DNA from: Nitrosospira multiformis
GTDB taxonomy: Bacteria; Pseudomonadota; Gammaproteobacteria; Burkholderiales; Nitrosomonadaceae
Length of the DNA: 64,000 nt
Direction: 5' to 3'
NCBI RefSeq assembly: GCF_003050865.1
Contig: NZ_QAOK01000013.1
Coordinates: 1 to 64,000 of the forward strand
The notes beneath the pieces are model-generated. The model was not told the origin of the DNA. It saw only the letters and a program-made list of their open reading frames with translations, and did no database searches. Positions 37,934-38,697 of the stretch are shown here, in pieces. The translations under genes and the position numbers were made by a program. Within the stretch, counting starts at the first letter, position 1. Every line of letters starts with the position of its first letter.

Positions 37934-38587
37934 TTATCTCAGCGACGCGAAAATGGCGTCGCGGATTGTTTCCACTGATCCGGCCCCCGTGATTTTCACA
38001 TACCTGGGAGCATCTTTTTCGCCACTAGCTGACCATCTGGCGTAGTATTCTACCAATGGTTCGGTCTGGGCGTGATAGATTTCGAGCCGTTTCCGTATCG
38101 TTTCCTCTTTATCATCATCACGCTGTATCAGGGGCTCGCCGGTCACATCATCCTTCTCATCGACCCGGGGCGGATTGAATATCAGATGGTAAATGCGCCC
38201 CGAGGCAGGATGTACGCGCCGACCGGAGAGGCGCCTGACAATCTCTTCGTCGGATACATCAATTTCAATGACGAACTGGACAAGCACTTCGGCAGCCTTC
38301 ATCGCATCCGCCTGCGGGATGGTGCGGGGAAAACCATCAAACAGAAAACCCTTGCTGCAATCCGGCTGTGCAATGCGCGCTTTCACCAGATCGATGATGA
38401 TGTCATCCGGAACAAGACCGCCCTCGTCCATGATCTTTTTGGCCATGAGACCCAGTTCGGTGCCTTCCTTGACGGCTGCGCGCAGCATGTCCCCTGTCGA
38501 TATCTGCGGAATGCCGAAATGTTCCTTGATGAAGCTGGCCTGAGTTCCCTTTCCCGCACCGGGACCACCCAATAAGACGATTATGAT
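37934..38587 (-). CDS. adk: Adenylate kinase with a non-standard start codon
   Basis: About 217 residues (E. coli 214); 2 ADP to ATP + AMP. Seen: P-loop [45 protein letters not shown] region [13 protein letters not shown], and [15 protein letters not shown]. No ATG, GTG or suitable TTG exists between the in-frame TAA at 38600-38602 and the P-loop: the codons are AAA GGA GGA ATA ATC ATA ATC GTC TTA TTG. An internal TTG at 38572 would delete the first beta strand. A strong SD AAGGAGG points at ATC 38587 (family length) or ATA 38584 (best spacing). I use ATC by alignment. Confidence 0.9.
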
Positions 38588-38591
38588 TATT

Positions 38592-38598
38592 CCTCCTT
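38592..38598 (-). promoter_or_regulatory. Shine-Dalgarno that decides the adk start
   Basis: AAGGAGG, a full anti-SD match on the minus strand. Spacing is 4 bases to ATC 38587 and 7 bases to ATA 38584. An extra-strong ribosome site is what a rare AUC or AUA initiator would need; no other gene start lies in range. Confidence 0.75.
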
Positions 38599-38697
38599 TT
38601 TATAAAGCCCGCGGGCGAGGCGGGGGCGAAATTCATTTCGTTGTCAAACGGGGGATTATAGCGCAGGCCATCCGCCTCTTGAACTTTTTGACCCGAT

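Follow-up and report, generated by a model that had tools for sequence, protein, structure and literature searches.

In the family Nitrosomonadaceae the gene encoding adenylate kinase, adk, lacks an AUG start codon and probably begins at a near-cognate AUH codon (AUA, AUC or AUU). The absence of AUG is confirmed as real and family-wide among the genomes that we read. From sequence we consider it probable, with good confidence, that the AUH codon is read by the ordinary initiator tRNA, that a Shine-Dalgarno (SD) sequence places it and that adk has a promoter of its own; such a gene would be throttled by its weak start and would respond to initiation factor IF3 as infC does.

The window, a stretch of 64,000 nucleotides from Nitrosospira multiformis, carries adk on the minus strand at 37934..38584, from the favoured start codon ATA (38582..38584) to the stop codon TAA (37936-37934); the gene is one codon longer if it starts at the alternative codon ATC (38585..38587). 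The ORF encodes a full-length adenylate kinase with a P-loop, scoring 358 bits against NCBIfam NF001379 (PRK00279; cut-off 268) and 192.8 bits against PF00406, and it is the only match above the PF00406 cut-off in this genome. A second, weak PF00406 match lies inside an ORF of 229 amino acids with an ATG start beside aroA, which, read by eye, appears to encode cytidylate kinase. On the minus strand the adk frame reads TAA (38602-38600) AAA GGA GGA ATA ATC ATA ATC GTC TTA TTG GGT GGT CCC. Between the in-frame stop codon at 38600..38602 and the P-loop this frame contains neither ATG nor GTG, and the sole canonical start codon is TTG at 38570..38572, all of which a sequence-only reading of this DNA had described correctly. 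That reading had also placed an AAGGAGG SD (38592..38598, minus strand) 4 nucleotides before ATC 38587 and 7 before ATA 38584, as we find, and had proposed a near-cognate AUH start, which is the best-fitting reading for the window and its relatives. Upstream of adk is a valS-like gene on the same strand (38698..41508; named from reading its translation). Its end is separated from ATC 38587 by 110 nucleotides, hence the two genes neither overlap nor are coupled stop to start. After adk, at 34299-37776, we noticed genes resembling those for a PPi-dependent phosphofructokinase and a proton-pumping pyrophosphatase (again named from their translations), and relatives of both lie within the 80-kb adk stretches of three genomes of the Nitrosomonas genus.

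To follow the start codon across the family we searched 125 genomes in four genera (denoted g1-g4), found an adk match in 121 and read one start per matched genome; second, partial or divergent matches in G079 and G124 were left out of the start counts. The one in G079 (G079:C32:1951-2523) is a divergent adenylate kinase match (identity 45%); the contamination listed for this genome is 6%, and the match perhaps lies on a foreign contig. The window's genus, g1, is most likely Nitrosospira/Nitrosovibrio, judging from identical start contexts in the named records L026-L028, and g3 appears to be Nitrosomonas by comparison with L029-L031 and L033. At the position of the canonical methionine the 121 genomes, which are related by descent and thus form a much smaller effective sample, have ATC in 67, ATT in 37 and ATA in 17. 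By genus, the codon is ATA in 8/8 g2 and 9/9 g4 genomes, and ATC (44) or ATT (37) in the 81 genomes of g3. The comparison across Nitrosospira genomes that the sequence-only reading had suggested gives ATC in 23/23 g1 genomes, followed by ATA in 17, ATC in 3 and ATT in 3, and never ATG. If the g1 start is moved to this next codon, the family totals become ATA 34, ATC 47 and ATT 40. Whichever g1 codon is taken, none of the 121 genomes has ATG, GTG or TTG at the start position.

These counts bear on a sequencing or assembly error, which the sequence-only reading had named as the plain alternative: were the true base at 38582 a G, the ATA at 38582-38584 would be ATG, and this one base change would supply a canonical start 7 nucleotides after the SD. 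No ATG stands at the aligned base of either candidate codon in the 121 genomes, among them the single-contig listings G001, G003, G012, G032, G097 and G114, and the same start contexts recur in named records (Nitrosovibrio sp. Nv4, Nitrosovibrio tenuis Nv1 and Nitrosomonas MAGs). We therefore give an error practically no weight.

The pattern of variation in g3 argues that coding begins at the AUH codon, since the two codons before it vary without constraint (L187 has TAA two codons before the start) while the codon after it encodes Arg2 in four synonymous forms, CGA, AGA, CGT and CGC. The same question can be put to the sequence further upstream, where an ordinary start, in frame or shifted, would add an N-terminal extension or feed a programmed frameshift. 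One or more in-frame ATG, GTG or TTG codons do precede the start position before a stop in 38/121 genomes. Four of these, the g3 loci L155, L160, L161 and L182, lack an SD where it normally lies and have in common a GTG four codons upstream (VKE[T/I]IRV); in L025 a GTG stands two codons before the start position, within the SD; in the 33 others the codons are at scattered or small-group positions. Against an upstream start, the remaining 83 genomes, the window included, contain no in-frame ATG, GTG or TTG from the start position back to the nearest stop or the end of the stretch. Moreover, the shifted frames are open from an ATG within 150 nucleotides in only 26 of 242 genome-frame cases, so that a shifted upstream frame is not conserved, and we rejected a programmed frameshift out of a frame opened by an ATG further upstream, such as that of ATG 38636. 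An upstream start is thus very improbable for the family. It may apply to L155, L160, L161 and L182, where, given the absent SD and the common GTG, the AUH codon may not be used and an escape to the upstream GTG with a short N-terminal extension is possible.

A start downstream, at TTG 38572, would use a canonical codon in the right frame and yield an enzyme without beta strand 1. Yet 86/121 family genomes have no ATG, GTG or TTG in the six codons counted from the start position, and the residues that such a start would remove are conserved across the family and agree with the N terminus that the protein usually has. We regard a start at TTG 38572 as scarcely credible.

The sequence-only reading had named AUC and AUA as candidates. 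A near-cognate start is supported; the two codons are not fully separated, and DNA homology with the sister genus g4 favours ATA 38584. In a MAFFT alignment the four g1 rows read ATCATA or ATCATC, then a gap of 3 nucleotides, then ATC or ATT, and the two g4 rows carry CGC in the gap. The gap opposite the g4 CGC suggests that Nitrosospira lost the Arg2 codon and that ATA 38584 corresponds by homology to the g4 start; ATA stands directly before residue 2 in 9/9 g4 and 8/8 g2 genomes. At the codon after ATC, ATA is found in 17/23 g1 genomes, as against 84 of the 625 isoleucine codons in 23 window genes, an excess that favours ATA as the start, with the reservation that the genomes are related and the count is not clean. 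For ATC 38587 speaks the usual protein length, which a start there would preserve. The invariance of ATC in g1 was dropped as support for an ATC start, since the same ATC is equally kept in the leaders of g4 (9/9) and g2 (5/8), where it is not the start. SD spacing was also tried as an arbiter and does not decide: in register, g1 shows a spacing of 3 or 4 to ATC and of 6 or 7 to ATA; the spacing is 5 in g2, g4 and 63/81 g3 genomes, and 12 of 23 window genes fall at 3-5. On this evidence ATA 38584 is the likelier start in the window and ATC 38587 the less likely one; perhaps both are used.

Outside the family the adk start is canonical almost throughout. Among the best 80 of 587 loci in a collection scan, ten have AUH (L026-L035), seven of them titled Nitrosospira, Nitrosovibrio or Nitrosomonas and three (L032, L034, L035) titled otherwise; the remaining 70 all have ATG, and none is titled with those three genera. 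A search of the order matched 79 of 80 genomes, 76 of them outside the family. The 47 of these 76 that were read, a non-random and mostly better-scoring set, have ATG in 43, GTG in 3 and CTA in 1, and the lone CTA genome has an in-frame ATG five codons upstream. The collection loci and the order genomes may overlap in species. A tree built from 68 adenylate kinases (50 rows of the family and 18 others) places the family on one side of a starred branch (98), with g4 sister to 22/23 g1 sequences (92) and L025 straying on a long branch. One change from ATG to ATH is enough on this tree, and, as the family is one clade, ATG was therefore lost once. Within the 50 family rows the third base of the start codon changed 6 times if the g1 start is ATC, or 9 times if it is ATA, and never to G. 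This suggests selection against AUG in the family, for which a single ancestral loss and few later third-base changes make weak evidence.

In the context of the start codon, an SD score of at least 14 is found in 106/121 family genomes and in 52/117 matches outside; by genus, the SD is strong in most members (23/23 g1, 75/81 g3) and weak in g2 (2/8 at this score) and in part of g4 (6/9), and four g3 genomes score 7. Searching from 35 to 140 nucleotides upstream of the start position, we found TATAAT in 111/121 family genomes, 69-138 nucleotides upstream, as against 7/121 after shuffling of the letters; outside the family it occurs in 14/95 loci, and in 7 after shuffling. The TATAAT at 38655..38660 on the minus strand of the window is likely the -10 box of a promoter belonging to adk itself. 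A generic two-box sigma-70 promoter scan upstream of adk gave no match. The adk leader folds no better than shuffled sequences (z 0.07), and an Rfam scan found no family above threshold; its two matches (E 2.3 and 3.9, far under the gathering scores) were taken as chance, which removed a known RNA element from consideration.

We read all 43 tRNA matches of the genome for an odd initiator tRNA and found none among them. The anticodon CAT occurs in three tRNAs, of which two are paired at 1-72. The third, L404, has C1-A72 and a GGG/CCC stem, features that mark an initiator tRNA; it is the sole initiator-type tRNA of the genome and its CAT anticodon is normal.

A throttled gene pairs a weak start with a strong promoter and SD, and the same arrangement would also arise if the loss of an AUG had been compensated. 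The AUH start may accordingly be real and merely historical, with AUG lost once, a strong promoter and SD making good the loss, and no regulatory role. The single loss on the tree fits this account, as does the compensatory look of the promoter and SD. On the other side, AUG is one third-base change away, and the 6-9 changes among A, C and T include none to G, a weak argument given how few the changes are. In prokaryotes, moreover, GUG and UUG starts are reported to change to AUG more often than the reverse, AUH starts being too few in that study to tell (PMC5622118). A purely historical start is a serious contender that we nonetheless hold to be unlikely, and we prefer the reading in which the AUH start throttles adk.

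The known IF3-class genes were examined in the same family. For infC, 59 of 61 genomes gave a match and 30 loci (L204-L233, from g1, g2 and g3) were read; the codon at the aligned start is ATA in 30/30, in contrast to AUU in E. coli, and from this alignment and from infC elsewhere ATA appears to be the infC start in the family. For pcnB, matched in 41 genomes, the start is ATG in all 30 loci read. In E. coli, pcnB reportedly has an AUU start (Binns and Masters 2002), which, as proposed for adk, limits expression of a chromosomal gene; that trait is not common to pcnB of this family. The likeness to infC drawn by the sequence-only reading is strengthened by ATA on infC in the same family. Since pcnB is not AUH here, an AUH start is not common to all the known IF3-class genes. 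The pcnB model also has a second, weaker match, to a related nucleotidyltransferase, which in one genome alone (G004:C1:2801650-2802324) contains an in-frame TAG.

Two controls show how far adk stands apart from other genes. Of 45 conserved ORFs in the window 7 were flagged mechanically, and by eye 6 of these have a canonical start in place; adk escaped flagging only because of TTG 38572. The seventh, an ORF beginning at 1067 on the minus strand, is conserved with one relative from its first codon and has no canonical codon before a TTG six codons in, which may or may not be its true start. Among 191 gene pairs from 280-kb stretches of G001 and G003, which belong to the window's genus, 63 were flagged because leader DNA is conserved, and three besides adk were examined more closely. 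By eye, adk alone among the flagged pairs has a catalytic motif ahead of the first canonical start that both genes share (column 36); glgC, considered as a second AUH case in G001 and G003, was rejected as it has TTG or ATG. With adk as the one clear case in 45 window ORFs and 191 gene pairs, AUH starts appear to be uncommon here, and adk is to be grouped with infC.

AUH is a weak start signal, best known from infC, which encodes IF3. Like adk, infC is an essential gene with an AUH start; unlike adk, a metabolic enzyme gene, it controls itself, and we know of no link of adk to IF3. Published infC starts are ATT in E. coli and ATC in Streptomyces (PMC5472188) and AUA in S. aureus (PMC13009471). 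When IF3 was raised in a reconstituted system, the full-length fraction for fMet on AUU with a CAU anticodon dropped to 31.1%, whereas that of stronger pairs increased (PMC10158994). In S. aureus, AUU and AUA starts are reported to give about 10% of AUG expression in poor medium, and ccpN up to 30% in rich medium (PMC13009471). These IF3 and AUH-start precedents predict for adk in this family only part of the translation that an AUG would allow, and an expression that responds to IF3; by this analogy its start is probably IF3-sensitive.

Streptomyces sigR resembles adk in that a non-canonical start with a strong SD is kept in a lineage (GTC in 32/34 and GTT in 2), and its start has been misannotated in genomes (PMC5472188). 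It differs in that sigR encodes a sigma factor, begins with GTC, is described for one genus and has a start that IF3 represses in experiment, whereas adk has AUH in four genera and a presumed IF3 control. In S. aureus, ccpN (AUA), cvfC1 (AUU) and citZ (AUA) likewise combine an AUH start with a strong SD (PMC13009471). Of these, citZ encodes an enzyme of central metabolism, as adk does, with its AUA limited to the NCTC 8325 lineage; ccpN, a regulator unlike adk, has a non-canonical start conserved between S. aureus and B. subtilis (PMC13009471), and the wide conservation of an AUH start therefore has a precedent in that report. The three S. aureus starts were measured, whereas that of adk is predicted from sequence.

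In the mechanism that we propose, AUG would have been replaced once in the family ancestor, and adk would be transcribed from its own consensus -10 promoter. The SD, strong in most members, would place the ribosome at the AUH codon, where the ordinary initiator tRNA (anticodon CAU) would initiate at AUA, AUC or AUU. The weak start would throttle synthesis of adenylate kinase, which would go up at a low ratio of IF3 to 30S subunits and down when IF3 is abundant.

A literature search by title and abstract, with subscription journals thinly covered, returned no report of a non-AUG adk start in these bacteria. To our knowledge the bacterial genes for which a conserved AUH start is on record are few, and most of them encode regulators or a translation factor. 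By its sequence adk appears to belong with the near-cognate, IF3-class starts, and it would be unusual among them as an essential enzyme whose start is shared by four genera. Gene callers limited to ATG, GTG and TTG are expected to misplace the start of adk. An AUH start on adk in all four sampled genera of the family of betaproteobacterial ammonia oxidisers would extend start-codon control to energy metabolism. We tentatively suggest, as a possibility that we hold with less than even confidence, that in ammonia oxidisers adk and infC together make up an IF3 regulon, in which the ratio of IF3 to ribosomes, read through AUH starts, would set adenylate kinase and with it the adenylate balance. 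If so, start-codon control of an essential metabolic enzyme, kept throughout a bacterial family, would be without precedent as far as we know.
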